The notes under the pieces were generated by a model, which saw only the letters and a list, made by a program, of their open reading frames with translations, had not been told where the DNA came from and searched no databases. From the NCBI RefSeq assembly GCF_030124145.1, contig NZ_JASKMS010000004.1, forward strand, positions 248,001 through 312,000: a stretch of DNA of 64,000 bases, in the 5' to 3' direction. Positions 26,247 through 43,032 of this stretch are shown in pieces. This stretch comes from Streptomyces sp. 378. Lineage in GTDB: Bacteria > Actinomycetota > Actinomycetes > Streptomycetales > Streptomycetaceae. A program made the translations under genes and the position numbers. How positions within the stretch are numbered: position 1 is the stretch's first letter; each line of letters starts with the position of its first letter.

Positions 26247-26256
26247 GAGGGCGCCG

Positions 26257-27147
26257 GTGAACGGGGGAGCCTTTCCGGCCACGGACTTCGCCAAGTACGA
26301 GGCGCTGGGCAACGACTACATCGTCATCGACCCGAGCGGCACGGGCTTCGTGCCGCTGCCCGAGCACGTCCGGCTGGCGTGCGACCGCCACCACGGCCTC
26401 GGCGGGGACGGTCTGCTGTACGGACCGTTGCCGGCCGAGGAGGGCTTCCGGCTGCTCACCTTCAACGCGGACGGCTCCGAGTGCCCGCAGAGCGGCAACG
26501 GCCTGCGGATCTTCGCCCGGTACCTGCGCGAGTCCGGGCACACGGACGCGGACACCTTCACGCTGCACTCGTCCGCCGGTCCCGCCACGGTCCGTGTCCT
26601 CGACCTCGACTCCGGCACGGTGAGCGCCGACCTCGGCACGGCCTCGCTGGACAGCCGCGCCGTCGGTGCGGTCGGCCCCGCCCGCACCCTGCTGCGCGAG
26701 CCCCTGCTCGCCGCCGGTGAACCGTGGGAGGTCACCTGCGTGCAGCTCGGCAGCCCGCACTGCGTGATCCCCGTACCCGACCGGAACGCCGACGAGGCCC
26801 TGGCCCGTACGGTCGGCGCGGCCGTGCGCGACCACGCGATGTTCCCGGACCGGATCAACGTCGAACTCCTCGACGTGATCGACCGGGAGACCCTCCGGAT
26901 CGAGATCTTCGAGCGGGGCGCCGGGTACACCCTCGCCTCCGGAAGCAGCGCCTGTGCGGCCGCCGTCGCCGCGCACGCCCTGGGCCTCACCGGCTCACGG
27001 GTCACGGTCCGCATGCCCGGGGGAGAGGTCGAGGTCGGCATCGGCGAGGACGGCACGGTCACCCTCACCGGCGTGGTCCGCCCGGTGCTGCGCGGCCGCT
27101 GGGCGGCGGGCATCGGACAGCGGCTGGCCGAGAAGACGCTCGCATGA
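26257..27147 (+). CDS. Diaminopimelate epimerase homologue lacking both catalytic cysteines
   Basis: 296 residues with the complete two-lobed DapF fold: KYEALGNDYIVID, HHGLGGDGLL, NADGSECPQSGNGLR and ERGAGYTLASGSSACAA. In true DapF the two acid/base cysteines sit in the QCGNG and ACGTGAC motifs; here both are serine (S79, S228). A normal two-thiol racemisation is therefore unlikely. An altered racemase, dehydratase/lyase or binding role is possible. GTG 26257 follows GAGAGG. In D-cycloserine synthesis a DapF homologue epimerises O-ureidoserine, a useful but imperfect parallel. Confidence 0.85.
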   Translation: MNGGAFPATDFAKYEALGNDYIVIDPSGTGFVPLPEHVRLACDRHHGLGGDGLLYGPLPAEEGFRLLTFNADGSECPQSGNGLRIFARYLRESGHTDADTFTLHSSAGPATVRVLDLDSGTVSADLGTASLDSRAVGAVGPARTLLREPLLAAGEPWEVTCVQLGSPHCVIPVPDRNADEALARTVGAAVRDHAMFPDRINVELLDVIDRETLRIEIFERGAGYTLASGSSACAAAVAAHALGLTGSRVTVRMPGGEVEVGIGEDGTVTLTGVVRPVLRGRWAAGIGQRLAEKTLA

Positions 27148-28229: not shown

Positions 28230-29608
28230 TGGGAGCCGTGGGAAGGGCCTGCCGGACGGACACGGCCGGCCCGGACGAGGCCGAGGCCCTGGCAACGGAG
28301 CCGGCCGGCGACGCGGAGGACGCCCGCGCGGCCGCCGCGCTGTTCGACGGTATCCACGGCGCCGACGGCCCGTGGCGGCCGGTGCGTCCCCTGCTGCTGC
28401 CCGCCGACGACTACCACAGGGCGGCGGACCTGTCCGCCCGCGCCGCCCGGCTGGTACTGGACGCCGCCCTGCGCCGGGCCCGTACCGCCGGCGAGCTGCT
28501 GGCGGCGCTCGGCTCCCGGCCCGAGGCGTTCCCCCTGCTCGACCACGACGCCCCGCTCGGCGGACACCTGCTGGCCGCGATCCGCCCCGACATCCTGATG
28601 GAGCGCGGCACGCCCCGGTTCGTCGAACTCAACGTCGACAGCGCCCTGGGCGGCGTGCTCCAGGCCGACCTGGTCCCGGACCGCTTCCTGCGGCGCTACC
28701 GTCGTGCACCGCTGCCCGGCGGGCCCGCGCTCACCGCGCCGCCGTCGGCTGTCGAGGCCCGGGCTGAGGCCCTGCGGTCCTTCCTCGCGCTGCCCGCGGG
28801 CGCCGCCGTCCTCCTCCCGCACTACCGGGTGGGCAACCTTCCGGGGCTGGCCGAGGACCCCGCCCGGTTCGCCGCATGGCTCGAACCCGTCTTCCGCAGC
28901 GCCCGGCGCCACGGCATCGAGCTGTTCAGCCACCCGCTGGAGGACCTCACCACCGACCGGGACGGCCGCCTCAGGGCCGGTGGCCGCCCGGTGGACGGCG
29001 TGTTCCGCTCGTTCGTCAGCCACGGCCAGGGCGCGAGCCCGGGCCTCACGGCGCTGGCCCGTGCCGTGTCCACGGGCGCCGTGGGGATGTTCACGCCGGA
29101 GGCCACCATGCTGCTCACCAACAAGAAGACCCTGGCCTGGCTCTGGGAGGACCTGGACCGACTGCCGTCTCGGGAGGGCGAGTTCGTCACCGCGCACATC
29201 CCGAGGACGGTCCGGCTGGAGCCGACCGCGGGCGGAGCCGCCCCGCACGAGGCCCTGACCGGCCGCTCCCGTCTCGTCCTCAAGCCCGCGGACGGCTTCG
29301 GGGGCCGCGGCGTCGTCGTCGGGGCCGCGGTGTCCGACGACACCTGGCACGCCGAGGTGGAGCGGGCGGCGCGCCAGGGCGGCCACGTCCTCCAGGAGCA
29401 CGTCGAACCGGACCGGGTGCGCCTCGGCTTCGTCCACACCCCCAGCGGCGAGGTCACCCACGCCGAGGTCCCCTACGTCCTCGGCCCCTTCCTGTACGGA
29501 CTGCGCGCGTCCGGGATGCTGGTGCGGCACGGCACCCCCTCGGCGGGGCCCGTGCTCAACGCCGGCGCGGGCGCCGTCATGAACAGCGTCCTGCTGGTGG
29601 GGGCGTGA
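28229..29608 (+). CDS. ATP-grasp-like protein (circularly permuted type)
   Basis: 459 residues. The C-terminal half has ATP-grasp elements: NKKTLAWLWEDL, RLVLKPADGFGGRGVVVGA (nucleotide lysine plus glycine loop, ~residues 350-370) and a LQEHVEPDRVR strand. The order resembles circularly permuted ATP-grasp and glutathionylspermidine-synthase-like proteins, which join a carboxylate to an amine through acyl phosphate. The N-terminal 50 residues are Ala/Asp-rich and poorly conserved-looking. TGATG overlap with the aminotransferase. Confidence 0.75.
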   Translation: MGAVGRACRTDTAGPDEAEALATEPAGDAEDARAAAALFDGIHGADGPWRPVRPLLLPADDYHRAADLSARAARLVLDAALRRARTAGELLAALGSRPEAFPLLDHDAPLGGHLLAAIRPDILMERGTPRFVELNVDSALGGVLQADLVPDRFLRRYRRAPLPGGPALTAPPSAVEARAEALRSFLALPAGAAVLLPHYRVGNLPGLAEDPARFAAWLEPVFRSARRHGIELFSHPLEDLTTDRDGRLRAGGRPVDGVFRSFVSHGQGASPGLTALARAVSTGAVGMFTPEATMLLTNKKTLAWLWEDLDRLPSREGEFVTAHIPRTVRLEPTAGGAAPHEALTGRSRLVLKPADGFGGRGVVVGAAVSDDTWHAEVERAARQGGHVLQEHVEPDRVRLGFVHTPSGEVTHAEVPYVLGPFLYGLRASGMLVRHGTPSAGPVLNAGAGAVMNSVLLVGA

Positions 29609-30948
29609 GACGGCCCGTGCGTGCCTTCCCGAAGCGGTCCGCCGCGTCCGCACCGGCGGACCGGAAACTCGGCGCCCCGTTCCGGATCTTCCAGGCGTCC
29701 GTCCTGGGCTCGAACCTGGCGGACGGCGTCTACCTGGTCACGCTGCCGCTGCTGGCCCTCTCCCTGAGCGGCTCGGCGCTGGTGGTCAGCGCCGTGGGCG
29801 TCGCCCTGCGCGCGCCGTGGCTGCTGCTGATCCTGCCCGCGGGAGTGGTCGTGGACCGCTGCGCGCCGATGGCCGTCATGAACTGGGCGTCGAAATGCCG
29901 CTTCCCGCTGGTCGCCGTGCTCGGCCTGCTCGCCTGGGCGGGGATGCTGCCGGTGTGGGCGCTGGTGGCCGGCGCGTTCCTGATCGCGGCGATGGGAACC
30001 TTCGTGGACCTCGCCGCCCAGTCACTCCTGCCGCGTCTGGTCACCCCGGAGCTGCTGCCCAGGGCCAACGCCAATCTGCAGTCCGGCCAGACCCTCGCGG
30101 CGCAGTTCGCGGGTCCGGCCCTCGGCGGCGTCCTCGCCTCGATGCACGGCGTGGGCTTCACCGTCGCGGCCGTGCTCTACGCGGGAGGGCTGATCGGCCT
30201 CGCCCTGCTGCACCGCCGGCCGGGCCCGTTCGGGGCGCACGCCCTCCCGGCCGCGCCCCGGGAACCCGGGCCCGCCGGCCGCGGGATCGCGTCGATGTGG
30301 CGGGACCTGCGCGAGGGCGCCGCCTACTTCAGACGGCGCCACGACCTGATCGGTCTCGCCGCCGTCGCCGCCACCGGCAACATCGCGTTCGCCGCCACCA
30401 TGACCATGCTGCCGGTGTGGGTGGTCTCCCCGGGGCGGCTCGGACTGTCGGGTTCGGCCATGGGCGTCATCGCCGCCGCCCCCGCCGTGGGTGGCGTGCT
30501 GGCGGGCCTGGTGGCCGCGCGGCTGCTGAACCGCTTCGGCGGGCGGGCGGTGCTCGGCTTCTGCGCCCCCGCCGTGGGGTTGTGCCTGGCAGCGATCGCC
30601 CTGCCGACCCCGCCGGCCGCGTTCGCCGCGCTGGCCGTGTGCGGAGGACTGATGGTGCAGCTGAACGTGATGAGCATGTCCCACCGGCAGTCGACCATCC
30701 CGACCGCGCTGTTCGCACGGGTCAACTCCGTCTACCGGTGGATCATCCTCGGCGTCTCGCCCGTCGGAGCGCTGCTCGGCGGTCTCGTCGCGCAGTGGTT
30801 CGGCACCGCCGCGGTGTTCCTGTCCGGGGGCGCGCTGGCCCTGGCCGCGGGCGCCCTGCTGCCCGCCCTGCTCTTCCACCCCTCACCCCAAGGCACCGAC
30901 CGCCTTGCGGAACCGCGACCGACCGACGAGGAACTGACCCATGACTGA
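29605..30948 (+). CDS. MFS exporter
   Basis: 447 residues with about 12 predicted helices and the MFS_3/enterobactin-exporter-like N-terminus FRIFQASVLGSNLADGVYLV. It starts with GTG 29605 inside the preceding stop (GTGA). Likely exports the mature product. A second, distantly similar MFS gene closes the island at 44682-45995. Confidence 0.88.
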   Translation: MRRPVRAFPKRSAASAPADRKLGAPFRIFQASVLGSNLADGVYLVTLPLLALSLSGSALVVSAVGVALRAPWLLLILPAGVVVDRCAPMAVMNWASKCRFPLVAVLGLLAWAGMLPVWALVAGAFLIAAMGTFVDLAAQSLLPRLVTPELLPRANANLQSGQTLAAQFAGPALGGVLASMHGVGFTVAAVLYAGGLIGLALLHRRPGPFGAHALPAAPREPGPAGRGIASMWRDLREGAAYFRRRHDLIGLAAVAATGNIAFAATMTMLPVWVVSPGRLGLSGSAMGVIAAAPAVGGVLAGLVAARLLNRFGGRAVLGFCAPAVGLCLAAIALPTPPAAFAALAVCGGLMVQLNVMSMSHRQSTIPTALFARVNSVYRWIILGVSPVGALLGGLVAQWFGTAAVFLSGGALALAAGALLPALLFHPSPQGTDRLAEPRPTDEELTHD

Positions 30949-31702
30949 ACAGCTCCAGGAGTTTCCCACCGACTGGACGCGTGCCCTGGCCATCGTCGCG
31001 CACCCCGACGACGTCGAGTACTCGGCCGCCGCCGCCGTCGCGACCTGGGTCGACGAGGGCAAGGAGGTCGTGTACCTGATGGCGAGCCGGGGCGAGTGCG
31101 GGATCGACGGCCTGGACCCCGAGAAGGCGGCGCCGATCAGGGAGCGGGAGCAGCGCGCGAGCGCCGCGGTCGCCGGCGTGCAGCAGGTGGAGTTCCTCGA
31201 CCACCCCGACGGGCTGATCGAGTACGGCGCCGCGCTGCGCCGGGACCTCACGCACGCGGTGCGCCGGCACCGCCCGGAGCTGGTCTTCACGCTCAATCAC
31301 CACGACCACTGGCGCGGCGTCTCGTGGAACACCCCGGACCACCGCAACGTCGGCCGGGCCGCCCTCGACGCGGCGGCCGACGCCGCCAACCGGTATCTGT
31401 TCCCCGAGGAGGGTCTTGAGCCCTGGGAGGGGGTGCGCTGGCAGGCGGTGGCCGGATCCCCGTACCCCACGCACGCCGTGGACGTCACCTGGGCGGTGGA
31501 GCGCGGCGTCCGGGCGGTGCTGGAGCACGCCACCTACCTTCAGACGCTGACCGACGAGGAGCCGGAGGCTTACGTCCGGGGGTTCCTGGGCCGCAATCTC
31601 GCCGCCGCCGGAGCGCGGTTCGGCGGCCGGCCGGCGGTGTCCTTCGAGGTCTTCCACCGCGACCCGTACCGGGTGCGCGCCGGCGAGGTCCACTACCGCT
31701 GA
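30941..31702 (+). CDS. PIG-L/LmbE-family deacetylase or amidase
   Basis: 253 residues with the zinc motif AHPDDVEYS (His, Asp, Asp; ~residues 19-25) and a distant His-containing segment NHHDHWRG, TPDHRN. The family includes mycothiol-pathway deacetylases and antibiotic N-deacetylases. In this setting it may hydrolyse an amide, for example a protecting or handle group (inference). The start lies inside the MFS gene (8-nt overlap), indicating coupling. Confidence 0.88.
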   Translation: MTEQLQEFPTDWTRALAIVAHPDDVEYSAAAAVATWVDEGKEVVYLMASRGECGIDGLDPEKAAPIREREQRASAAVAGVQQVEFLDHPDGLIEYGAALRRDLTHAVRRHRPELVFTLNHHDHWRGVSWNTPDHRNVGRAALDAAADAANRYLFPEEGLEPWEGVRWQAVAGSPYPTHAVDVTWAVERGVRAVLEHATYLQTLTDEEPEAYVRGFLGRNLAAAGARFGGRPAVSFEVFHRDPYRVRAGEVHYR

Positions 31703-31782
31703 GCCTCGGCCGCCCGCTCCCCGTCCGCCTCGCCACCCGCCCCTCCCGCCCCGGCCCGGGACCGACCGTAGGGACACCGCTC

Positions 31783-33057
31783 GTGCACATCGCCATCGTC
31801 GACGTCAATCCGCCCGCGGTGCAGGCCGTACGGCTCGCCAAGGAGGCGGGCCACCGGGTGACGTTCCTGCAGCCCGCGCTGACGCAGTACGCGCTCACGG
31901 GCGAGACCCTGAAGGCCGTACGGGCGGTGGACCGGCTGATCGACGGGATCGACACGACGGACACCGCCGCCGTGCTCGCAGCGCTGGAGAAATGCCACGC
32001 CGAGTCGCCGATCGACGTGGCGGTGACGTTCCAGGAGCTGGCCGCCGAGGCGGTGGCCGCCGCCTGCCGGAGCCTCGGGCTGTGCGGCACGGCACCCGAC
32101 GCGGTGTTCACCGCCCGGCGCAAGGACCGCTGCCGGGCGGCGCTCGAGGAAGCGGGGCTCGCGTCCGCCCGCTGGGCGCTCGCGCTCGACGTGGACGAGG
32201 CACTGGCCGCGGCCGGGCGGATCGGCTACCCCGTCGTGATCAAGCCGCCGTCCGGCAGCGCCAGCCTGCTCTCGCACGTGGCCGACGACCCGCAGGAGGC
32301 GGCGGCCGCCTGCCGGAACGTGCTGACCGGCACCGACGGGGTCCCGGCGCACTGGCGGACCCAGTTCGCGCGGGGCGTCCTGGTGGAGGAGAAGCTGACG
32401 GGCAGGCTGGTCTCGGTGGAGATCGGCGCCCGGCGGGGCGAGTTCTTCCCGTTCTGCGTCACCGGCCGGTTCCGCGCACCGGAGAACGAGGTGGTCGAAC
32501 TGGGCTCGTGCGTCCCCGCCGGGCTGACGCCGCGGGAGAGCGCCGACTGCGTCGCCTACGCCGAGGAGGTCTGCCGGGCCATCGGAGCCGACCAGGGGAT
32601 CTTCCACCTGGAGGTGATGGTGACCGAACGCGGGCCGGTCCTGGTCGAGTTCAACCCGCGGATCATGGGCGGCGGCCTGCCGCACGCCTACCGGCACGCC
32701 ACCGGGCAGGACATCTACGCCTCGTGGCTGCAGCTCATGACCGGGGAGCCGGTCGACGTCCCCGGCGGGATCATCGGCTGCACCGCCGTGTTCGCGGTCG
32801 TCCCCCGGGACGGCGGACGGCTGTCCGCGACGGCCTGCCTCACGCCGCTCGACGGGCAGGCCGACGTCGTGGAGGTCATCGGGTTCGACGCCTACCGGAC
32901 CGGACCGGGCGAGACGGTCGCCCCCGGCCAGGCCGTCGCCCGCTTCATCCTGCGCGCCGGGAACCGCCGGGCCGCGGTGGGCAGGGCCGAGGAACTGCTG
33001 GGCCGGCTGGAGGGAACGCTCGGCACCCGGCTGATGACCGGCGACCTGGATGCCTGA
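31783..33057 (+). CDS. ATP-grasp amino-acid/peptide ligase
   Basis: 424 residues, full ATP-grasp ligase of the D-Ala-D-Ala ligase/carbamoyl-phosphate-synthase-like class. N-terminal Rossmann VHIAIVDVNPPAVQAV, ATP lysine and loop in YPVVIKPPSGSASLLSHV (~145-162), metal sites in FHLEVMVTERGPVLVEFNPRIMGG (~275-298). Such enzymes make dipeptides or amides from free amino acids. Last gene of the operon, after an 80-bp gap, with GTG start; it may couple the diaminopropionate product to another amino acid. Confidence 0.88.
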   Translation: MHIAIVDVNPPAVQAVRLAKEAGHRVTFLQPALTQYALTGETLKAVRAVDRLIDGIDTTDTAAVLAALEKCHAESPIDVAVTFQELAAEAVAAACRSLGLCGTAPDAVFTARRKDRCRAALEEAGLASARWALALDVDEALAAAGRIGYPVVIKPPSGSASLLSHVADDPQEAAAACRNVLTGTDGVPAHWRTQFARGVLVEEKLTGRLVSVEIGARRGEFFPFCVTGRFRAPENEVVELGSCVPAGLTPRESADCVAYAEEVCRAIGADQGIFHLEVMVTERGPVLVEFNPRIMGGGLPHAYRHATGQDIYASWLQLMTGEPVDVPGGIIGCTAVFAVVPRDGGRLSATACLTPLDGQADVVEVIGFDAYRTGPGETVAPGQAVARFILRAGNRRAAVGRAEELLGRLEGTLGTRLMTGDLDA

Positions 33058-33147: not shown

Positions 33148-34260
33148 TCAGAGCAGTCCGTACGCGCGGAACTCGTGCTCCACCATCGGGTCGTCCAGCA
33201 CGTCCAGCGCCACGAAGTAGGAGATCGTCCGCTTGGCCGTCGCCCGGGTGTGCGCGGCGACGGTCGTCTCGTCGTACACCTCGGCGAGGACCTGCTCGGC
33301 GTCGTCGCGCGTGAGCCCGTAGCCCAGCAGCTCGGTGCGCACGGCGTCGGTGTCGGGCTGCAGGAAGGCCGCGATCAGCCGGGGCACCAGCAGTGCCGCC
33401 TCCCGCCGGGCCGCGGGGTCCAGGGCGGCCCACAGGTAGCGCAGGAAGGCGGCGAAGTACACGTGGTGGCGTCCCTCGTCCGCGGCGTGGTCGCGGATCG
33501 TCTCCCGCACGGCCGGCACGATCTCACCGTCGACCGGCAGTTCGGCGAGGCTGGCCGATATCAGGGTCTCCGAGACGGTCACGAAGAGCAGTTCGGCCAG
33601 GGCCCGGGTGTGCGGCGGCAGCTCCTGCTGGATCTCCTCCAGCCGCCGCAGGAAGTAGGGCTGCTCCGGCAGCACCGGGGCGATGCCGGTGGTGTCGCGG
33701 ACCTGGCGCATCAAGTCCACCGAGAACAGGGCGTGGTAGGCCTCGTCGCAGTAGATCTTGTAGGCGTCGAAGCGCATCTCCTCGGGGAGTTCGACGCCGA
33801 CGCTGCCCTGCGCGATGCCGAGCGCGGTGCGGTTGACCACCAGCGTCTCCAGCTTGGCGGTGAAGTCCAGGTAGCGGTAGAGGTGCTGGACGAGCACCGT
33901 GTCGAACAGCTCGGGGCGCAGCTCGGCGATGAGCGGGTGGCGCGCGACCGGCACCAGCTCCGGGGAGAAGTAGCGGGAGGCGTCGGAGGACGGCGCGCTC
34001 AGCTCACGCCGGGGCGACCGGCGGACGGTCGCCCGCTCCGACCAACGGCCGAAGGGAGAGCTGTACGAGACGTCGGCCTGCTCCCCGTCCGTCCCGGCCC
34101 CGGGCGCGAAACCGGACGCGGGCCCGGCACCGGTGATCGGCCCGGCACCGGCGACGGGTTCGGCACCGGCGGCCGGCGGCGCGCCGGCCGGGGCGAGTGC
34201 CTTGCGGGGGCAGTAGGCCAGCGCGGAGCACCCCACGAAAAGCCCGACAATCCCGCACAT
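33148..34260 (-). CDS. AurF-like diiron N-oxygenase (copy 2) with unusual N-terminus
   Basis: 370 residues. Residues ~65-370 parallel copy 1, with the same ligand pattern: FTAKLETLVVN, CDEAYHALF, TVSETL and RDHAADEGRHHVYF. The first ~65 residues are different: MCGIVGLFVGC, which mimics the start of class II glutamine amidotransferases (Cys2), then an Ala/Gly/Pro-rich linker. An ATG five bases upstream opens a different frame without homology. The gene ends the leftward asnB operon, 38 bp after the PqqD-like gene. Possibly modifies a peptide-linked amine. Confidence 0.83.
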   Translation of the reverse strand: MCGIVGLFVGCSALAYCPRKALAPAGAPPAAGAEPVAGAGPITGAGPASGFAPGAGTDGEQADVSYSSPFGRWSERATVRRSPRRELSAPSSDASRYFSPELVPVARHPLIAELRPELFDTVLVQHLYRYLDFTAKLETLVVNRTALGIAQGSVGVELPEEMRFDAYKIYCDEAYHALFSVDLMRQVRDTTGIAPVLPEQPYFLRRLEEIQQELPPHTRALAELLFVTVSETLISASLAELPVDGEIVPAVRETIRDHAADEGRHHVYFAAFLRYLWAALDPAARREAALLVPRLIAAFLQPDTDAVRTELLGYGLTRDDAEQVLAEVYDETTVAAHTRATAKRTISYFVALDVLDDPMVEHEFRAYGLL

Positions 34261-34298
34261 CGCATGGTTCCCAATCGTTGGTGAAGGTGGTGGAGGGG

Positions 34299-34586
34299 TC
34301 AGGCGTTCGGCAGGTCCAGGACCCTGACGTCGGCGAGCTGGCCGACCAGGTCCGCGGTGTCCGCGACCGCCTCGTCGACGTCGATGCCGTACTCCTCGGC
34401 GAGCAGGGCACCGATGCCGGCCACCGAGCGCTGCCCGTCCACGCAGGCCAGGATGAAGGCCGCGGAGTCGGACAGCTCCATGGCGTTCGGCCCGACGGCG
34501 ATGAGCGTCTTGTCAGGGAACCTGCGGAAGCGTGCCGCCAGGCCGAGCCGGGGCACGACGTCGGCCGCTGAGATGGTCGGGGACAT
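34299..34586 (-). CDS. PqqD-like peptide-binding (RRE) protein
   Basis: 95 residues with a PqqD-type winged-helix pattern: an N-terminal beta-hairpin segment (TLIAVGPNAMELSDSAAFIL) followed by CVDGQRSVAGIGALLAEEYGIDVDEAVADTADLV, of which the DGxRS/T turn and the hydrophobic helix spacing are typical. PqqD-like RiPP recognition elements bind leader peptides and present them to modifying enzymes. A lasso-leader-like peptide is encoded in the same operon. ATG directly abuts the nucleotidyltransferase stop (TGAATG). Confidence 0.75.
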   Translation of the reverse strand: MSPTISAADVVPRLGLAARFRRFPDKTLIAVGPNAMELSDSAAFILACVDGQRSVAGIGALLAEEYGIDVDEAVADTADLVGQLADVRVLDLPNA

Positions 34587-35366
34587 TCAGATCTCCACCC
34601 TCATGGAAAGGAGCTTGCACAGGTACATCACGTCACGGACCCACGTGGCCGGGTCGTCCTGATCGAAGTCGCGCATCGTCTCGACCGCCCAGTAACGCTC
34701 GTACGACAGCGCCTGCGGAGCGGCCGCCTTCATGCGCCGGGCCCGCCATTTCACCAGCCGGCCGTACTCCCCGTGCGCGGCGACCAGGGCGTCCACGGCG
34801 TGTCCGAACGCCTGGCGGACCGACAGCACGGCACTCGCCTCGTCGCCCGTGGCCAGCTGCCCGAGGGCGTCCTCGGCGAAGTCGTCGGCGTTGGTCAGGC
34901 AGTGCGTCACCACGGCTGCCCGGAACGCCGACTCCTGGATCAGCCGCTGCTGCCGGCGCACCCACTCCTCGCCGTCCAGCGGGTGGCAGACCAGCAGCCG
35001 CTCCAGCAGTTGCTCCTCGTCCCGGGTGAGCATCTGGCCGACGGTCCGGCCCTGGCCGAACTCCGCCCAGGACACCTTGGCGAGGATCTCCTCGACCTGG
35101 CCGGACGTCCAGTACTTGACCTCCCAGCGCCGTTCACCGAGGTAGAAGTGCTCCGTGGGCACGTCGGGATGGCTCAGCGGGACGCGGATCGTGCCGGAGG
35201 AACTGCCGGTCCACGGCTTCTCGCCCACCACGTAGATGTCGAGGTCGCTCAGGTCGTTGCCCCAGCCGCGGGCGAGGGAGCCGACGACGAACGCGGAGTC
35301 GTGGCTGTCGGGCAGCAGGTCGCGCCCGGCCAGTTCGTCCAGGCAGCGGGTGAAGTCGAAACTCAT
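34587..35366 (-). CDS. Nucleotidyltransferase-domain protein
   Basis: 259 residues. The N-terminal domain has the pol-beta-type nucleotidyltransferase motif GSLARGWGNDLSDLDIYV (~residues 28-45: G-S...D-x-D), and the C-terminal ~130 residues are helical. Relatives adenylylate or nucleotidylylate small molecules or proteins. Here it could activate a carboxyl or hydroxyl group of the substrate, or AMPylate a partner. It follows asnB by 92 bp in the same direction. Confidence 0.83.
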   Translation of the reverse strand: MSFDFTRCLDELAGRDLLPDSHDSAFVVGSLARGWGNDLSDLDIYVVGEKPWTGSSSGTIRVPLSHPDVPTEHFYLGERRWEVKYWTSGQVEEILAKVSWAEFGQGRTVGQMLTRDEEQLLERLLVCHPLDGEEWVRRQQRLIQESAFRAAVVTHCLTNADDFAEDALGQLATGDEASAVLSVRQAFGHAVDALVAAHGEYGRLVKWRARRMKAAAPQALSYERYWAVETMRDFDQDDPATWVRDVMYLCKLLSMRVEI

Positions 35367-35458
35367 GCGGGCGTTGGCCTTCCGGGGCGCGGTCGTAAGG
35401 GGCTGGATACGGCGGGCGGCCTGCCACCGCACACGCCGGTGGCAGGCCGGTGGCCCGG

Positions 35459-37654
35459 CTATTCGCCCGTCGCCGGGCCGGAGAGGGTGAGCAGGCCGAA
35501 CTCGGCGGACTGGAACAGCAGTTCCTCGACGTCGGCGAGTTCGCACTCCGCGGCGGCCAGGAGCTCGCCGAGGGTGCGCTGTCCGTCGATGCCGTCGATC
35601 AGCCGCTGCCACTGCGGCATCTCCTCGCCGTCGATGACGAACTGGATCTCGCCGTCGATGACCAGGTAGCGCAGGAGCGGTTCCTTCTGGTCGGTGAGCA
35701 GCAGGACCGAGTCGTCCAGCGCGGGCACGAGCGCGTCGTGCAGGTCGGGCCGCCGCAGCACCCGGGCCTCGATACCGTCGCGCTCCGCCTCCCAGTCTCC
35801 GACGATCAGTTCGACCGGGACCGGAGCGGGCGTGGCCTCCACCGGCGGCGTGGGCGGCTGCTGCAGCATCACGTCCAGCAGTCCGAGGTTGACCGCGCGC
35901 AGCAGGAATTCCACGTGCCCGGAGGAGGGGTCCTGCTGCAGGGCGCGCAGGGTGGCACGCGCGTTGTCGGCGTCGAGGTACTCCTTGGCCCGCGGGCCGG
36001 ACAGGGCTTCTTCGAGCAGGGCGTCGCCGTCCGCCGCGAGCATGCCCGCGAAGGCGCGGTAGGTGTGGCGGATGCCGTCGCCGTAGAAGAACCCGACCTT
36101 GGTCCGCTCGGCGAACTCGGCCGGGAGCACCCCGCCGAGGCCGTCGCGCAGCAGGCGCTTGTCCCAGGTGAGCCGGGCGCGCAGCGACGGCGGGACACAG
36201 GCGGAGAGTTCCACGAGACGGTGGTCCAGGAAGGGGACCCGGGCCTCGATGCCGCTGCCGGCGGCCGTCCGGTCCTCGTGCCAGCAGTTGTACTGCTGGA
36301 CGTCGCGGTACTTCCAGCGCAGGTACCGCTCGTAGGGGTCCTCGGCGGGCGTCCCGCGGCGCAGCACCTCGGCCCGCACCAGCGGCTGCGGGGACTGCTC
36401 CCACCAGGCCGCGAGACCGCGGTGGCGATGGCGGTCGTCGCGCAGCGCCATGCCGTCGATGCCGGACGCGAACTGCTCCCAGTCGTCGCCGAAGCCGGCC
36501 GTGTAGCCACCGTTGAACTCGTCGCTGCCGCCGCCCAGCAGCATGCCCTTGATCTCCGGGAACCGGGCCTTGACGAAGCGGTACAGCTCCCGCTTGTAGA
36601 AGACCTCGGGACCGCACTGGGGACTCTCCAGCAGCCACAGCAGGTTCTTCCACTCCTGCGCGGCGGGCACCTGGGAGATGTCGAAGAGGACCTGGTGGTT
36701 GTCGAGCCCGTAGTGCCGGGCGACGCGATGCCCGTACATGGCGTCCTCGTTGGCGAGGGTGCTGCCGTTGAGGGCGGTGAAGGTGCGGGGGCGGATGGTG
36801 CTCAGGGCGGCGATCGACGCGGAGTCGACACCACCGCTGAGGAAGAGGCCCACCTCGGTGTCCGAGGTCTCGCACTCGCGCACCGAGTCGGCGAGCGCCT
36901 GCGCGTACCGCTCGGTGAACTCGGCGGGGGAGAGCTCGTCCCGCAGATCCGCCGTGCGCGGGAAGGACCAATAGCGGTGATTCTCGGTACTTCCGTCACG
37001 CAGGTCGATCGTGACGACGGTCGCGGCCGGCACCAGTTCGACACCGCGGAACCAGGTATTGGGCGCGCCTTCGACGAAATCCGGCGCTCCGGTGAGCGCC
37101 TGGTCGGAAAGGGCGCTGTCCCAGTCGAGTTCGCGCGGACAGGCAGGGTCTTCGAAGAGCGTCTTTATCTCGGAGCCGAAGACCATGCGCTCGCTGTTCC
37201 GGTGATAGAACAGCGGCTTGATGCCGAACCGGTCTCGAGCGAAAAGGAGACGGTTTCTCTTGCGGTCGTAGAGGACGATCGCAAACATGCCCCGGACGTC
37301 GTCCAGGAACCGGAGGCCCTTTTGCTGGTAGAGATGGACCAGCACTTCGCAGTCGCCGGAGGTACGAAGGCGGACGCCGGAAGGCAGGGTCGCGGCCAGT
37401 TCGCGGTGGTTGTAGACCTCGCCGTTGGCGATGAGGATCACGTCGCCGTCGGGGCTGTGGATCGGCTGGCCGCCGTTGGTGGGGTCCACGAGGGACAGTC
37501 GCGTGAAGGCCAGGCCGACCGGCCCGGTACGCAACAACTCCTGATCGTCGGGGCCTCGATGGGCCACGGCCCGCGCCATGCGACGCAGAAGGCCGTCAGT
37601 GTCCGGCGAGAGCACCTGCCCATCGGTGCGGGCCAGACCTGCAAGGCCGCACAT
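35459..37654 (-). CDS. Asparagine-synthetase-like protein with C-terminal RRE-like extension
   Basis: 731 residues, about 100 longer than ordinary AsnB. Class II glutaminase domain intact: Cys2 (MCGLAGLA), AHRGPDD, ANGEVYNHREL. Synthetase PP-loop LFLSGGVDSAS (271-280). ATG 37654 follows GAGGTGA and puts Cys at position 2. The last ~110 residues contain LLRYLVIDGEIQFVIDG and IDGIDGQRTLGELLAAAE, a pattern like the nearby PqqD-like protein. Lasso-peptide cyclases are AsnB homologues that adenylate a carboxylate and form an amide. Amidation or ligation on the operon's peptide is my inference. Confidence 0.88.
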   Translation of the reverse strand: MCGLAGLARTDGQVLSPDTDGLLRRMARAVAHRGPDDQELLRTGPVGLAFTRLSLVDPTNGGQPIHSPDGDVILIANGEVYNHRELAATLPSGVRLRTSGDCEVLVHLYQQKGLRFLDDVRGMFAIVLYDRKRNRLLFARDRFGIKPLFYHRNSERMVFGSEIKTLFEDPACPRELDWDSALSDQALTGAPDFVEGAPNTWFRGVELVPAATVVTIDLRDGSTENHRYWSFPRTADLRDELSPAEFTERYAQALADSVRECETSDTEVGLFLSGGVDSASIAALSTIRPRTFTALNGSTLANEDAMYGHRVARHYGLDNHQVLFDISQVPAAQEWKNLLWLLESPQCGPEVFYKRELYRFVKARFPEIKGMLLGGGSDEFNGGYTAGFGDDWEQFASGIDGMALRDDRHRHRGLAAWWEQSPQPLVRAEVLRRGTPAEDPYERYLRWKYRDVQQYNCWHEDRTAAGSGIEARVPFLDHRLVELSACVPPSLRARLTWDKRLLRDGLGGVLPAEFAERTKVGFFYGDGIRHTYRAFAGMLAADGDALLEEALSGPRAKEYLDADNARATLRALQQDPSSGHVEFLLRAVNLGLLDVMLQQPPTPPVEATPAPVPVELIVGDWEAERDGIEARVLRRPDLHDALVPALDDSVLLLTDQKEPLLRYLVIDGEIQFVIDGEEMPQWQRLIDGIDGQRTLGELLAAAECELADVEELLFQSAEFGLLTLSGPATGE

Positions 37655-37698
37655 ATTCACCTCACTCGATCTCGGAGTACTCCGGAAAAAAAGGATTT

Positions 37699-37741
37699 GC
37701 GCCGGGGCGCCGTGGTCCATAGAACCTCGGCGCCCCGGCGC
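37699..37741 (-). terminator. Attenuating terminator between peptide gene and asnB-like gene
   Basis: Perfect 14-bp stem, GCGCCGGGGCGCCG (37699-37712) with CGGCGCCCCGGCGC (37728-37741), 15-nt loop. On the minus strand it is followed after AAATCC by a run of seven T. It begins 6 bp after the 22-codon peptide gene and ends 45 bp before asnB, so most transcripts should stop after the peptide. This is the arrangement used in RiPP operons to make precursor in excess. Confidence 0.85.
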
Positions 37742-37746
37742 TCACA

Positions 37747-37815
37747 TCACACGACCGTGCTGAGGACGGTCCCGAAGGCAACCTTCTTGGTGGCCGGCTT
37801 GGTGTACTTCTTCAT
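37747..37815 (-). CDS. 22-residue lasso-leader-like peptide without a core
   Basis: ATG 37815 to TGA 37747. It is preceded by AAGGAGGTGAT, an almost perfect complement of the 16S rRNA tail, at good spacing. The peptide starts MKKYTKPATKK, continues VAFGTVL and ends STVV. Tyr4-x-x-Pro7 and the following Gly and Thr match the actinobacterial lasso-leader pattern Y-x-x-P-x-L-x-x-x-G-x-F-x-x-x-T, but the frame ends where a core would begin. A strong terminator follows. It likely serves as a handle or scaffold peptide recognised by the PqqD-like protein; alternatively it is a regulatory leader peptide. Confidence 0.7.
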   Translation of the reverse strand: MKKYTKPATKKVAFGTVLSTVV

Positions 37816-37926
37816 GTGGAATCACCTCCTTTTCCTGTGGAATAGGCGAACCATCAGGTTCCGGTGACCGGAGCCCGTCGGCTTCGCTGGAACGACACTA
37901 AGCCGCCGGAGCCGATCAGCGCACCT

Positions 37927-38031: not shown

Positions 38032-39174
38032 GTGGAATCCACTGCAGCGAGCGGGTCTAGGTCGCCTATGGCGAATCCATGGAGTGGGCTGCCGCCCGTG
38101 GAGGTCCATTGCCATGGGTTCGGTGACGTCGATTTCTCGGACTTCACCAAGGTCGACCTCGCGCGCCTCGACGCCTGGTGCGCGAGCGAGGGCGTCCTGA
38201 GCCTGCCCACGATGTACCTCCACCGGCAGCAGCTCGCGGAGTTCGAGGCCTTCGTGCACGAGTACCACCGCATGCGGGGCGAGGGACTGCTGCCGCACGT
38301 CGCCGGCATCGCCCTGGAGGGGCCGCTCCTGGCCAGTCACGGCGGTACCCCCGCGGCCACCGTCTGGGCCCCCAGCAGGCACGAGTGGGAGCGCCTCGCG
38401 GCCCTCGGACCGTACGGACTGACGTACACCGTCCTGTCGCCCGACGCGTTCTCGCCCGCCTCCGAACTCCAGGACGAGCCCACTGCCCGCGACACGGGCT
38501 TCGACTGGCTCATCCCGCTCCTCATGGCCCACGGGATCCGCCCCGCGCTCGGCCACTTCACCCGTGCCGACCCGCTGCGCAGCGCGGAACAGGTCGACGA
38601 GATCGTCGAGCTGGCCTGGCAGAACGAGTGGTCCGGCACCGGCGTCCGCGTCGTCACCGACCACCTGTTCAACGACATGCCGCTGCTGATCCGGCACGCC
38701 TTCCGCAGTGCCCGGGCGCGCGCCGAGCGGGACGCCGTCATCGCCTCCTACGACCTGCCCGGCTGGACCCTCGACCAGATGCCGCGGATCGTCGGACCGG
38801 TCCCGGCGGCCATCATGCGTCAGGCGGCGGCCGGCCGTATCGGCGCCTGCATCAACTTCGACGGGGAGCACGTCGACCTGGCCATCGCGACCCGTGCCGT
38901 CCAACTGATGGGCGTGGAGAACTCGATGATGATGACCGACCGCTGCGACTCCGCACGGCTCGGCGGCCAGGACCTGCACCACCGCGTGGACAACGCCCTC
39001 TGGTACCAGCAGGACGGGATCGTCGCGGCCGGTTCCGTGCCGCTGGCCCGTCAGATGGCCAACGCGCAGTCGCAGGGTCTGTCCCCCCAGGACGTCCGCA
39101 CCCTCGCGGCCGGCACCGCGCACCGGGTGTTCGGACTGCCCGTCCGGTCGGAAGCCCGCCTCCCCGTCGCGTAA
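38032..39174 (+). CDS. NagA-like metal-dependent amidohydrolase
   Basis: 380 residues of the amidohydrolase superfamily, closest in pattern to N-acetylglucosamine-6-phosphate deacetylase. Metal site VHCHGFGD near residue 24, GIALEGPLL (Glu ligand, ~97), PALGHFTRADP (His, ~178), ACINFDGEHVDL (His, ~280) and MMTDRCDSA (Asp, ~303). It would hydrolyse an N-acyl bond; substrate unknown. GTG 38032 has GGGAG seven bases upstream; ATG 38068 is an alternative. First gene of a seven-gene rightward operon. Confidence 0.83.
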   Translation: MESTAASGSRSPMANPWSGLPPVEVHCHGFGDVDFSDFTKVDLARLDAWCASEGVLSLPTMYLHRQQLAEFEAFVHEYHRMRGEGLLPHVAGIALEGPLLASHGGTPAATVWAPSRHEWERLAALGPYGLTYTVLSPDAFSPASELQDEPTARDTGFDWLIPLLMAHGIRPALGHFTRADPLRSAEQVDEIVELAWQNEWSGTGVRVVTDHLFNDMPLLIRHAFRSARARAERDAVIASYDLPGWTLDQMPRIVGPVPAAIMRQAAAGRIGACINFDGEHVDLAIATRAVQLMGVENSMMMTDRCDSARLGGQDLHHRVDNALWYQQDGIVAAGSVPLARQMANAQSQGLSPQDVRTLAAGTAHRVFGLPVRSEARLPVA

Positions 39175-39193
39175 TCCGAAGAAGGAGCCCCAC

Positions 39194-39877
39194 ATGCTTG
39201 ACGCACTCGACCGGCTGGTCGTCGACTGGTCCGATCTCCCCAAGGCCCGCGCGCAGACCAAGGAGATCCTCACCGCGCTCTCCGAGGACAAGGCGGCACT
39301 GACGCAGCTGCTGGAGCGGGCGCGCGAGGAGGAGGACCTCTTCGACAAGTGCGAGCACCACCGGCTGCTCGACAAGCTCGTCATCTACGACGCCCTGGAC
39401 CGCGGCTTCCGCATCCGCGTGCACGTCTCGACCGAGGACCACCGGGACCGGCCGCACGACCACCGGTTCACCTTCACCTCGCTGATCATGCGCGGCCAGT
39501 ACAAGCACGTGCGGCACGAACTGACCGGGCGTCTCTCGGAGGAGGACATTCCGCGCAGCGCCCAGGACGACTTCGACGCCGTGCCGACCGACCTGCGCGT
39601 GGTGCCCCGGTTCGTCACCAACGAGCAGGCGGGCAACTGCTACACGCTCCACCACAGCGAGATCCACACCACGTACACCACCCCGGACACCGTCTCGCTC
39701 TTTCTGCGCGGCCCCGCGGAGAAGGAGCGCTCGATCATCACCGAGCGGGAGACCGGCCGTGTCTGGTGGCGCTTCGGCGAGGACAAGGAAAAGACCGAGC
39801 GCCGCGGCAGCAAGCGCATCAGCAAGGACTACTTCGACGAACTCACCGGCCGCCTGCGGGCCATGGAGGTGCTGTGA
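39194..39877 (+). CDS. Cupin-like protein (copy 1)
   Basis: 227 residues. After a helical N-terminal ~60 residues, a beta-barrel with metal-type histidines: RPHDHRFTFTSLIMRGQYKHV (~92-112, His-x-His) and YTLHHSEIHTTYTTPDTVSLFL (~152-172). It resembles cysteine-dioxygenase-type cupins in layout, but I cannot assign a reaction. The next gene is a paralogue in the same operon. Good Shine-Dalgarno AAGGAG. Confidence 0.75.
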   Translation: MLDALDRLVVDWSDLPKARAQTKEILTALSEDKAALTQLLERAREEEDLFDKCEHHRLLDKLVIYDALDRGFRIRVHVSTEDHRDRPHDHRFTFTSLIMRGQYKHVRHELTGRLSEEDIPRSAQDDFDAVPTDLRVVPRFVTNEQAGNCYTLHHSEIHTTYTTPDTVSLFLRGPAEKERSIITERETGRVWWRFGEDKEKTERRGSKRISKDYFDELTGRLRAMEVL

Positions 39878-40608
39878 TGGTGACCCGCCCCGGCGACGAC
39901 CTGATGTATCTCACCCCGTCGATCCTGCTGAACGCGCCCTCCGAGCAGGACATCGCCAAGGCCGAGGCGCTCATGGCCTCGCTGCCCAAGGTGCGTTGGG
40001 ACGACCTGGAGGCGGCGGCGGAGATCACCGAGGCGATCGCCCACCGGCTCGGCGACGACCGGGCGCTGCTGCGCACCCTCGTGGGCCGTGCGCTGCGCAC
40101 ACCGGAACTGCGCGAGAAGTTCGAGTGCCACGCGCTCGACGACAAGATCGTGATCTGGGACGACCAGGACAAGGGCCTGCGCATCCGGCTCCGGCTCGCC
40201 AACACCGACCAGTACGAGCGGGTCCACAACCACCGCTACAGCTTCACCGCCTACATCCTGCACGGCGCGTACCAGCACACCCTGTACGCGACCGACCAGC
40301 CGCTCGACGAGAGCGCCGACGTCTCCCGTTTCTGGCCGTACTTCGTGCGCGAGGAGCCGGCCGGCCGGTGCATCACGCTCGACCACGAGCAGTTGCACAC
40401 CACCATCACCGAGCCCGAGACGATCTCGCTGATGATCCAGAGCCCCGCCCGCAAGCAGCGCGCCTTCATGATCCGCCGCGACGACGGGACCGTCTGGTAT
40501 CGCCTGGGCGCCGCCGAGGAGTCCGCGGAGCGCCGGGCCGAGGTGCGCATGTCCGACGAGCGCATGCACCACTGGCTGTCGCGACTCGAAGCGTTCGGCC
40601 TCCTGTGA
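39877..40608 (+). CDS. Cupin-like protein (copy 2)
   Basis: 243 residues, paralogue of the preceding protein: CHALDDKIVIWDDQDKGLRI matches its HHRLLDKLVIYDALDRGFRI, VHNHRYSFTAYILHGAYQH its metal segment, and ITLDHEQLHTTITEPETISL its second one. The start overlaps the previous stop (TGATG). Tandem copies may form a heterodimer. Possible roles are Fe-dependent oxidation or small-molecule binding; none can be fixed from sequence. Confidence 0.75.
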   Translation: MVTRPGDDLMYLTPSILLNAPSEQDIAKAEALMASLPKVRWDDLEAAAEITEAIAHRLGDDRALLRTLVGRALRTPELREKFECHALDDKIVIWDDQDKGLRIRLRLANTDQYERVHNHRYSFTAYILHGAYQHTLYATDQPLDESADVSRFWPYFVREEPAGRCITLDHEQLHTTITEPETISLMIQSPARKQRAFMIRRDDGTVWYRLGAAEESAERRAEVRMSDERMHHWLSRLEAFGLL

Positions 40609-41378
40609 GCACGGCCTTCGGTCACCTCCGGTACGGACCCTCCGGGTGGCAGCGCATCGACCTGTACGGGCCGGCGGAACCGGAGGACGGTGACGTGTCC
40701 GTCGCCGAGACCCCGCAGGCCGCACCGGTGGTGCTGGTGCACGGCGGTTTCTGGCGGCACGACCGTACGGCGCAGGATCTGGAACCGCTGGCGTTCGCCC
40801 TGGCCGAACTCGGCCACCGGGTCGCCGTCCTGGAGTACCGGCCGAGCTGGGACGGCGGGGCCTGGCCGGGCGCCGCCGAGGACTGCCGGGCGGCCCTGCA
40901 CCTGCTCGGCCAGAAGGACAGCACCTGGGACGGCGCGGTGCTCGTGGGCCACTCCGCGGGCGCCCATCTGCTGCTCGCCGCCCTCCAGGAGCAGGCCCGC
41001 GGGGCCCGCGTCGTGCTGCTCGCCCCGGTGACCGACCTCGCCGAAGCGGCCCGCCTCGGGGTCGGCGAGGGAGCCGTGGAGGTCTTCCTGGCCGAACACC
41101 GCGCCGCCGGTGGGACCCACCGGGAGGCGACGCCCGTGCTCGCGCCGGCCGACGCGGCCTCCGTCACGGTGGTGAGCGCGCAGGAGGACCAGGCCGTACC
41201 GGTGGAACTCACCCGCCACCAGCTGGACCACTGGCCGCAGGACGGACCACGGCTGACAACGGTGTCCGTGCCCGGCGCACGCCACATGCATCTGGTGAAC
41301 CCGCAGCGCCCCGCCTGCCGGACCGTGATGGAGCTCATCGGCGGCGGTGCCGCGACCGCCAGGAAAGAGGACAGGTGA
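40605..41378 (+). CDS. Alpha/beta-hydrolase, kynurenine-formamidase-like
   Basis: 257 residues. Oxyanion motif HGGFW (~47-51), nucleophile elbow GHSAGAH (~118-124), acid Asp in SAQEDQAVP and catalytic His in GARHMHL near the end. The HGG-x-W form is typical of formamidases and arylformamidase-like esterases. A folate-type formyltransferase is encoded elsewhere in the island, so it may remove a formyl group added earlier (inference). GTGA overlap with the cupin gene. Confidence 0.82.
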   Translation: MSTAFGHLRYGPSGWQRIDLYGPAEPEDGDVSVAETPQAAPVVLVHGGFWRHDRTAQDLEPLAFALAELGHRVAVLEYRPSWDGGAWPGAAEDCRAALHLLGQKDSTWDGAVLVGHSAGAHLLLAALQEQARGARVVLLAPVTDLAEAARLGVGEGAVEVFLAEHRAAGGTHREATPVLAPADAASVTVVSAQEDQAVPVELTRHQLDHWPQDGPRLTTVSVPGARHMHLVNPQRPACRTVMELIGGGAATARKEDR

Positions 41379-42361
41379 CCACGACGACCACCGCCGCCCC
41401 GGCGCCGGCGGACCTCCACGTGCCGGGCACGACCCGCTCGGCCGTGCTGCCGCGGGCGTTCGACTCCCTGACCGTGGACCCGCGCAAGCGGGATCTGTAC
41501 CGCCTGGACCCCTACGCGCGGGAGGGACTGGAGCTGTTCGGCTCCCCCAGCGAGCGGGCCTGGCTGCACGCGAACACCTTCGTGGTCCTCAAGCCGGACG
41601 CCCTGGCCGGCCGGCGTGGTCCGCGGGTGCTGGACATCCTGGAGGAGGAGGGCTGGAAGCCCTTCGCGGCCCGGCCGTTCCCCTTCGACCCGGTGCTGAC
41701 CAGGGAGATCTGGCGCTACCAGTTCAACGCCGCCTCACGGCAGCGCATCGCGGTGGTCGACCACCTGCTGGGCTCCGGCCCGTCCGCGCTCGTCCTGCTG
41801 CGTGACACGCGTAGAGCGGGATCCGGCCTTCCCGCGAGCGTACGGCTGACCGCCGCCAAGGGAGCGGCCGACCCCGCCTCCGCCCACGGCCGTGACCTGC
41901 GCACCCGCTTCGGCCGGGTCAACGGGCTGTTCAACTTCGTCCACACCCCGGACGAACCGGCCGACCTGGTACGGGAGTTGCGGCTGTTCACCTACCGCAC
42001 GGGGACCGCCTGGCTGCGCAGCGCGCTCACGCAGAGCCCGCCCGCCGAGGGGCAGCCGTGCCCGGCCCGGAGCCTGGTCGCCGAGCTGGAGCGGGACATC
42101 CCGCTGCACGACCTCGCGGCGGAGCCGAGCCTCGGCCGGCTCGCGGGGCGTACCGACCGGTGGGGCGCGCTCGCCCGCGAGCACCGCACACGTGACGCGG
42201 TCCGGCACTGGCTGACGGCCCTGGGCGACGCGGAGTTGCCCCCGGGCGCCGCCCGCTGGGACGTCCTGTCGGTGCTGACAGAATGGATCGACTGCAACGA
42301 ACCAGGTGTCGCGCCGCTGCTCGCCACCGTCGCGGCCGCCGACTGGAGGAACGAAGAGTGA
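41375..42361 (+). CDS. Protein with nucleoside-diphosphate-kinase-like domain
   Basis: 328 residues. The middle resembles NDK: ANTFVVLKPDALAGRRGPRV (Lys for ATP phosphate, ~67-86) and the region around FNFVHTPDEPADLVREL (~195), which parallels the NDK active site N-x-x-H-G-S-D with the phospho-His position conserved. An insertion replaces part of the core, and the C-terminal ~110 residues are unrelated and helical. A kinase or phosphotransfer role on a pathway intermediate is possible. GTGA overlap with both neighbours. Confidence 0.7.
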   Translation: MTTTTTAAPAPADLHVPGTTRSAVLPRAFDSLTVDPRKRDLYRLDPYAREGLELFGSPSERAWLHANTFVVLKPDALAGRRGPRVLDILEEEGWKPFAARPFPFDPVLTREIWRYQFNAASRQRIAVVDHLLGSGPSALVLLRDTRRAGSGLPASVRLTAAKGAADPASAHGRDLRTRFGRVNGLFNFVHTPDEPADLVRELRLFTYRTGTAWLRSALTQSPPAEGQPCPARSLVAELERDIPLHDLAAEPSLGRLAGRTDRWGALAREHRTRDAVRHWLTALGDAELPPGAARWDVLSVLTEWIDCNEPGVAPLLATVAAADWRNEE

Positions 42362-43032
42362 GCGCCCTTCCCCCCGCCCCGCAAGCGGTCGTCTTCGACT
42401 GTGACGGACTCCTGGTCGACACCGAGGTCTGCTGGACCAGGGCCGAGACCAAGATCTTCGCCGCCCATGGCCACGACTTCGGCCCGGAGCAGAAGGCCCT
42501 GGTCATCGGCCGTACGCTGCAGGGCGCGGGCGAGGCGATGGCCGAGTATTTCGGCAGGCCCGGAGCCGGCCGCGAGCTCGCCGCCGAACTGCTCGGCCTG
42601 GTACGCGAGGAGCTGGCAAAGGGGGCCGACGCGCTGCCCGGCGCCGCCGAACTCGTCAAGCGCTGCGCCGCGACCCTTCCGGTGGCGGTCGCCAGCAACT
42701 CCCCCCGGGAACTGCTCGACACCGCGCTCACCTCGTCCGGCCTCGCCGACTACTTCCCCGTGTCCTTCGCGGCCGACGAGGTGATCACGGCCAAGCCGGC
42801 CCCCGACCTTTATCTGGTGGCGTGCGAGGCGCTGGGCGCCCTCCCGGGTCGCTCGGTCGCCTTCGAGGACTCCGCCACCGGCATCGCGTCGGCCCGGGCG
42901 GCGGGCCTCTACGTCGTCACCGTGCCCTCCCTGCCGGGCGCCGTGCTGGACCACGACTGGATGGCCTCCTCACTCGCCGACGCCGAACTCGTCCGCTGGG
43001 CGGAAGGACTGGGCGACGGTGTCCGGCAGTGA
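42358..43032 (+). CDS. HAD-family phosphatase
   Basis: 224 residues of the beta-phosphoglucomutase-like HAD group: VVFDCDGLLVDTE (nucleophile Asp near residue 13), VASNSPRELLD (Ser/Thr motif), KPAPDLYLVACEALG (Lys) and AFEDSATGIASA (acidic pair). Removes phosphate from a small molecule or acts as phosphomutase. Together with the NDK-like protein just upstream it implies a phosphorylated intermediate. GTGA overlap. Confidence 0.87.
   Translation: MSALPPAPQAVVFDCDGLLVDTEVCWTRAETKIFAAHGHDFGPEQKALVIGRTLQGAGEAMAEYFGRPGAGRELAAELLGLVREELAKGADALPGAAELVKRCAATLPVAVASNSPRELLDTALTSSGLADYFPVSFAADEVITAKPAPDLYLVACEALGALPGRSVAFEDSATGIASARAAGLYVVTVPSLPGAVLDHDWMASSLADAELVRWAEGLGDGVRQ

Follow-up and report, generated by a model that had tools for sequence, protein, structure and literature searches.

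A 22-codon gene on the minus strand of a 64-kb stretch of DNA from Streptomyces sp. 378 (the window; the whole genome is 8.67 Mb) encodes a short peptide without a core. The gene heads a cassette with the order 22-codon peptide open reading frame (ORF), AsnB, nucleotidyltransferase-like protein (NTase), PqqD-like protein and AurF-family protein. The peptide is proposed to act as a scaffold: an amide or hydroxamate would be formed from its C-terminal carboxylate, with oxygenation by the AurF-type enzyme and probably nucleotidylation; a rough probability of 0.45 is assigned to this reading. Judged by its parts, the cassette is a new variant of scaffold-peptide biosynthesis, and no description of the 22-mer or of the cassette was recognised in the open-access literature. 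If the C-terminal scaffold is correct, AsnB-plus-AurF nitrogen chemistry would be added to ribosomal peptides, a new use of them, and the cassette, being small and open to testing in a heterologous host, would serve to make peptide hydroxamates and perhaps activated nitrogen. Its features are the following.

37822..37831, minus strand: Shine-Dalgarno sequence AAGGAGGTGA of the peptide gene, from the sequence
37747..37815, minus strand: 22-codon peptide gene, MKKYTKPATKKVAFGTVLSTVV, from translation and recurrence in the family
37684..37741, minus strand: GC-rich hairpin (about 37699-37741) then seven T, terminator-like, from the folding z value
35459..37654, minus strand: AsnB/TsnB9-type glutamine-dependent amidotransferase, 731 aa, from profile, residues and predicted fold
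35462..35839, minus strand: RRE/PqqD-like C-terminal extension of AsnB, residues 606-731, from hhalign and secondary structure
34587..35366, minus strand: NTase-like protein with a predicted kanamycin-nucleotidyltransferase fold and a GS..DxD motif, from profile and fold
34299..34586, minus strand: PqqD-like discrete RRE-type protein, 95 aa, from PF05402
33148..34260, minus strand: AurF-type diiron oxygenase, start uncertain, family match from about residue 89, from PF11583

The sequence observation in an earlier note on this DNA is confirmed. The note had described a 22-codon gene with a near-perfect Shine-Dalgarno sequence; translation gives MKKYTKPATKKVAFGTVLSTVV, with AAGGAGGTGA upstream. 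The absence of a core also holds, as the ORF ends at codon 22. The AsnB, free PqqD-like, NTase and AurF-like genes reported to follow it are recovered by profile matches: the PqqD-like protein matches PF05402 with 45 bits (cut-off 23.4), AurF matches PF11583 with 106 bits, and the NTase matches PF01909 with 19.1 bits, slightly below the cut-off of 21. The first approximately 85 codons of the AurF ORF fall outside the family match, so that its start is uncertain.

A search of genome contigs with the AsnB protein gave 58 loci, and the 42 near full-length ones were kept (L016-L056 and L058; L denotes loci or stretches and G denotes genomes). Together with the window, 43 loci were analysed; the remaining 16, with more distant AsnB proteins (25-37% identity), were excluded. 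The closest AsnB in a named genome, that of Streptomyces indiaensis, is 98% identical. A family peptide, counted by sequence pattern, is present in 39 of the 43 loci; 38 of these peptides are exactly 22 residues long and one has 20. The pattern search found no peptide in L036 and L050, and L031 and L056 were also scored as not found. L056 has a divergent 20-mer instead of the family peptide, and L031 (9754-9966) has a longer ORF that ends in KPYVKPQARQVAYNTVLRVVA, with KPYVRPKP before that, which makes it a naturally fused or extended variant. In a survey of 391 genomes of the order, AsnB is found in ten (E <= 1e-60) and the peptide in all ten; six of the ten, including the genome of the window, overlap the 43 loci. 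All three plasmids with AsnB carry a 22-codon ORF, which is unlisted in their (incomplete) gene tables. These counts are the outcome of the search for homologues near asnB in other genomes that the earlier note had suggested.

In 18 control loci with AurF relatives but neither NTase nor PqqD, the family peptide is absent, although one unrelated 37-residue ORF passed the pattern; in the 16 distant loci, no family peptide was found within 450 bases upstream of AsnB. The peptide ORF is just upstream of asnB in 36 of the 39 loci and 1.5-6.3 kb upstream in L033, L041 and L047. Three tandem 22-codon copies are found in L026 (9646-9916) and L052 (9606-9898), with a ribosome-binding-like site before each copy.

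Residue statistics cover 38 of the 39 peptides (the alignment shows 35). All of them have Y4 and P7, 37 have K6 and 35 have V12. Position 22 is occupied by A, V, R, T, S, K, I, H or C; no acidic residue and no Phe, Tyr, Trp, Gly or Pro occurs there in this set. The pN/pS value is 1.48 for codons 19-22 compared with 0.78 for codons 2-18. The L058 peptide has lost two inner residues and still has four residues after Val-Leu, which points to the distance to the C-terminus as the conserved feature. A fixed length (38 of 39 peptides) combined with variable last four residues fits chemistry at the C-terminus, and the role of scaffold or handle given to the peptide in the earlier note is retained.

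The full glutaminase site is retained in all 43 AsnB proteins. These residue counts are from 43 rows, five of which ran past the stop (L026, L034, L039, L040 and L043); a later alignment has 41 of the 43 proteins (L016 and L040 omitted), with the other four overrunning rows trimmed at the true stop. The best Foldseek match of the AsnB model is the hydroxyamidotransferase TsnB9. With the glutaminase site intact, donors of the ammonia or hydroxylamine type fit better than an amino acid, which argues against the earlier proposal that AsnB joins a small amino acid to the peptide.

The C-terminal extension of AsnB had been described as RRE-like, and this is supported. By hhalign, the profile of the extension aligns with that of PqqD across 49 columns (94% probability, E 1.4e-7), and in the structural model of the extension three helices come after strands. 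A comparison with Pfam shows no match for member 1 and weak matches to winged-helix and other families, each in 1-5 of 41 members. Fold searches barely reach past about residue 607 of AsnB, and the RRE-like assignment therefore rests on hhalign and secondary structure.

Across the 43 loci the NTase is present in 39, the PqqD-like protein in 38, AurF in 37 and an MFS protein in 27. In 37 of 38 loci the NTase and PqqD genes are adjacent and co-oriented. The NTase alignment contains 38 of the 39 proteins (L040 omitted) and the PqqD alignment 32 of the 38; modelling of the NTase predicts a kanamycin-nucleotidyltransferase fold with the GS..DxD motif. Seven residues that are presumed to be the diiron ligands show no variation among the 37 cassette AurFs. 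A whole-genome search for 11 loci, most of them with a part missing nearby, recovered the NTase in 10 and AurF in eight; the AurF of G391 is a distant 35% copy on another contig. The NTase occurs in all ten AsnB genomes of the survey and in 13 genomes in total. It was also considered as an exclusive marker of the cassette, and this was rejected since it occurs without a nearby AsnB in three of the 13.

The gap between the peptide gene and asnB in the window has a folding z value of -5.6 over 196 nt. The corresponding gap folds better than shuffled sequences in the family as well, with z <= -2 in 31 of the 36 adjacent loci and a median of -3.7. The hairpin was absent from the description in the earlier note. 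A search of positions 30000-42000 of the window gave no Rfam match. The hairpin likely allows the peptide to be made in larger amounts than the enzymes.

The gene set, the fixed peptide length, the intact active-site residues and the hairpin are read directly from the sequence. In the proposed mechanism, two partners would bind the Y-x-K-P motif, namely the PqqD-like protein and the RRE-like tail of AsnB. The C-terminal carboxylate of the peptide would be adenylated by AsnB, which would then add a glutamine-derived nitrogen, or alternatively hydroxylamine from a glutamyl hydroxamate made by AurF, as in TsnB7/TsnB9. By the ammonia route, AurF would oxygenate the resulting peptide amide; peptide-CO-NH-OH would be the product of either route. 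The kanamycin-nucleotidyltransferase-like enzyme would then place a nucleotide on the new hydroxyl to give an activated nitrogen, which would be used or released, and the MFS protein would export the small product. Nucleotide transfer, release and the identity of the final product are postulated. An elaboration that is considered doubtful has the coreless 22-mer as a reusable nitrogen carrier, on which a hydroxamate would become an N-O-NMP (nucleoside monophosphate) and then undergo a Lossen-type rearrangement or form an N-N or N-C bond. With the activated nitrogen spent off a reusable carrier, the tail residue would hardly matter and a protease would be unneeded.

A close parallel is the trichostatin A and benzohydroxamic acid system. 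TsnB7, with the helper TsnB6, is reported to oxygenate glutamine, and TsnB9 to transfer hydroxylamine to a carboxylic acid (PMC5719088, PMC13418202). As in the cassette, TsnB6/TsnB7/TsnB9 combine an AurF-type oxygenase and an AsnB-type enzyme with a glutaminase domain; however, the acceptor is a small carboxylic acid, and the main text of that report is without mention of a peptide or PqqD (PMC13418202). Of the features of this module, the cassette has the AsnB-type fold, the glutaminase residues and an AurF-type protein; the RRE-like domain of AsnB and the NTase partner are extra on the cassette side. MatA/MatC of matlystatin and ActI/ActJ of actinonin, for which hydroxamate formation has been proposed, also pair an AurF homologue with an AsnB homologue, but the proposed substrate is a small acyl-CoA and no mention of a peptide scaffold was found in the text available for that work (PMC5719088). 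LitN, another AurF homologue, is described as required for N-hydroxylation of an amide, as determined by gene deletion (PMC10616846). Five of the 18 other AurF loci examined here also have AurF and AsnB as neighbours, without a peptide.

Asparagine-synthetase-like (AS-like) enzymes are reported to act on the C-termini of ribosomal peptides, where PesC forms a nitrile and TsrC and ScdTA form amides; approximately 300 AS-like peptide-modifying candidates are said to be still uncharacterised (PMC13060819). These systems resemble the cassette in having an AsnB-type enzyme beside a ribosomal precursor, and PesC uses glutamine or ammonia; PesC differs in that its partners are MNIO and HExxH enzymes and the core of its precursor is modified (PMC13060819). 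The cassette has a precursor peptide beside an AS-like enzyme with a glutaminase site, but it has no core, and its AsnB is accompanied by AurF, NTase and PqqD-like proteins. FzmA, an asparagine-synthetase homologue, is reported to release hydrazine from glutamylhydrazine (PMC6133997). Pearlins, as in the ammosamide pathway, are short ribosomal peptides that serve as scaffolds for C-terminal chemistry, and extension of scaffold peptides at the C-terminus is reported for PEARLs (PMC12715798). PEARLs differ in their use of aminoacyl-tRNA, and the contig of the cassette has no LanB-like gene: the two matches to PF04738 (LanB-like) in the genome are on contigs C3 and C55, and none is on the cassette contig, C34. 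3-Thiaglutamate is reportedly another example of a pearlin/PEARL scaffold peptide.

A number of observations weigh against the scaffold proposal. The chemistry assigned to the cassette is a prediction from its genes. AurF is unmatched in G118, G241 and G397, three of 11 genomes checked whole; AurF is thus not universal, and AsnB and the peptide must act without it there. No AsnB or family peptide is present in the 20-kb stretch around the NTase in G061, G373 and G005 (three of 13 genomes), and the NTase family may therefore act on other substrates or confer resistance. The position of AsnB aligned with Glu348 of E. coli AsnB is A, G, Q, S or T, and with this difference the acceptor is not predictable. 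The pN/pS value of codons 2-18 represents weak purifying selection, and the peptide itself may be the product, in view of its variable last residues. The Dap (diaminopropionate) unit discussed below is conserved beside the cassette in a subgroup, where a Dap-derived partner is possible. A clade of AurFs restricted to the cassette is not seen in a quick, unfinished tree, where peptide-free AurFs branch among cassette AurFs.

The remaining features of the window are on the plus strand.

20467..33057, plus strand: diaminopropionate island, with a Dap unit that is cassette-linked in a subgroup
38032..43032, plus strand: accessory set of a 380-aa protein, two shorter proteins, an alpha/beta hydrolase, an NDK-like protein and a HAD protein
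44682..45995, plus strand: MFS protein, homologue of the MFS protein seen with the cassette in 27 of 43 loci

A first alternative resembles the pearlin pathways. AsnB would join a small amino acid, e.g., diaminopropionate, to the peptide, followed by oxidation and release. The island has genes for a second AurF (20467-21384, absent from the earlier note), a carbamoyltransferase-like protein, SbnA, SbnB, a 2OG-Fe oxygenase, a DapF-like protein, an aminotransferase, an MFS protein, PIG-L and ATP-grasp proteins. The first four of these constitute the Dap unit, and SbnA and SbnB exceed curated cut-offs. In the window, L017, L019, L034 and G208 the unit shares a contig with the cassette, at a distance of up to about 15 kb, and this linkage gives weight to the alternative; C-terminal extension of scaffold peptides is also reported in the text available on PEARLs (PMC12715798). 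Genomes with the linkage share the first three accessory-set genes as well. In Streptomyces indiaensis (L016) the unit is on a separate contig from the cassette. Among the 43 stretches, SbnA/SbnB are seen only in the window and L017, with flanks of at most 10 kb that would often miss them. Searches of 32 whole genomes, which are part of the cassette genomes, found SbnA above the cut-off in 19. As it was not above the cut-off in the other 13, the cassette family does not depend on Dap, and Dap as a general partner was rejected for the family. The intact glutaminase site in 43 of 43 AsnB proteins and the lack of a LanB-like ligase on the cassette contig also argue against amino acid addition, which is considered unlikely. 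The interpretation in the earlier note stands in part: the coreless scaffold peptide with PqqD/RRE-like domains is retained, the joining of an amino acid is not, and the Dap partner gives a mixed result, with the Dap unit near the cassette in the subgroup of the window but 13 genomes without SbnA over the cut-off. Dap or a Dap-derived compound may be the partner in this subgroup.

The second AurF, carbamoyltransferase-like and SbnA genes (20467-23360 in the window) recur as a trio without the cassette in L108, L109, L112 and L113, and the second AurF and carbamoyltransferase genes are also found in L107 and L119. This suggests a separate diaminopropionate N-oxygenation pathway. L175 (4281-5336) has an additional NTase/PqqD pair near the Dap unit of L034, besides the pair counted for L034.

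The locus could also encode a true ribosomally synthesized and post-translationally modified peptide, with the modified 22-mer, or only its tail, as an end product for export by an MFS or ABC transporter. The last four residues are the most variable, there are three tandem copies in L026 and L052, and plasmid L173 is a compact cassette with an MFS protein and a helix-turn-helix (HTH) regulator, all of which are consistent with such a product. However, 11 gene families are present in at least 10 of the 43 loci, and among the nine that are Pfam-assigned there is no peptidase, although the gene calls are rough. The MFS_3 exporters usually carry small molecules. A peptide end product is considered improbable. 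A LanM-type gene adjoins the cassette in five of the 43 loci (L021, L023, L026, L029 and L037) and in plasmid L173 (2554-5427). The L029 gene, the only one scanned, has a strong DUF4135 domain and a LanC match below the cut-off.

A further alternative is compatible with the other readings and concerns only the NTase, which would provide self-resistance by O-nucleotidylation of the product, with peptide, AsnB, PqqD and AurF as the core of the cassette. The predicted kanamycin-nucleotidyltransferase fold is consistent with this role, as is the presence of the NTase without nearby AsnB or peptide in three of 13 genomes. In G118 and G241 the NTase is 19 and 23 kb, respectively, from asnB. On the other hand, none of the ten survey genomes with AsnB lacks the NTase, and its gene adjoins that of PqqD in 37 of 38 loci; a resistance role does not seem likely.

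In an attenuation leader, translation of the ORF would control read-through of the hairpin into asnB, and a small hydroxamate would be made without the peptide. The hairpin after the ORF (31 of 36 loci) and the ORF position just upstream of asnB (36 of 39) speak for such a leader. It is very unlikely, however, given that the ORF is 1.5-6.3 kb from asnB in three loci, Y4 and P7 do not vary among 38 peptides, tandem copies are present, a PqqD-like partner occurs in 38 of 43 loci, and no run of regulatory codons is seen in the peptide alignment.

The cassette is not a lasso system. A lasso peptide with a lost core was rejected in view of the fixed 22 aa, the lack of a B2 family and an AsnB below the cyclase cut-off. 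The family PF13471, which is taken here to be the transglutaminase-like leader peptidase B2, has no match at E <= 0.01 in the whole genome of the window and has matches in three of 14 control genomes; the absence of a transglutaminase-like protease, reported in the earlier note for this locus, extends to the entire genome. AsnB scores 168.5 bits against the lasso cyclase family NF033535, for which the cut-off is 525. A lasso cyclase search of 147 genomes of the order found none, but the control was also silent and the search is uninformative. The lasso leader positions are reported as Tyr(-17), Pro(-14), Leu(-12) and Thr(-2) (PMC10368454). The lasso leader spacing seen in the earlier note holds for Tyr-x-x-Pro but not for the other two positions: in lasso numbering, none of the 38 peptides has Leu at residue 9 (A, V, T or K instead) and one has Thr at residue 19. 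The likeness to lasso systems thus consists of the Y-x-x-P motif, a discrete PqqD-like RRE, an AsnB-type enzyme and, in some of them, a nucleotidyltransferase, as given in the text available (PMC10368454). The cassette differs in that its peptide lacks a core, Leu(-12) and Thr(-2), the genome has no match to the B2 family, and AsnB scores far below the cut-off. A lasso peptide should not be assumed wherever AsnB and PqqD occur with a Y-x-x-P peptide.

In G118, one of the genomes without an AurF match, genes for an amidase, an adenylosuccinate-lyase homologue, a TauD-type oxygenase and a phosphoenolpyruvate (PEP) mutase are located within about 20 kb of asnB. The AurF-less cassettes of L122 and L148 have this neighbourhood (within about 20 kb), which perhaps represents a phosphonate pathway with other nitrogen chemistry. 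NTase homologues in L166 and L167 are in other clusters with no nearby AsnB, and each adjoins a 305-aa protein that is similar in the two loci. The 380-aa protein and the two short proteins of the accessory set (38032-40608 in the window) have no Pfam or NCBIfam match and are cassette-associated in 10 of the 43 loci.

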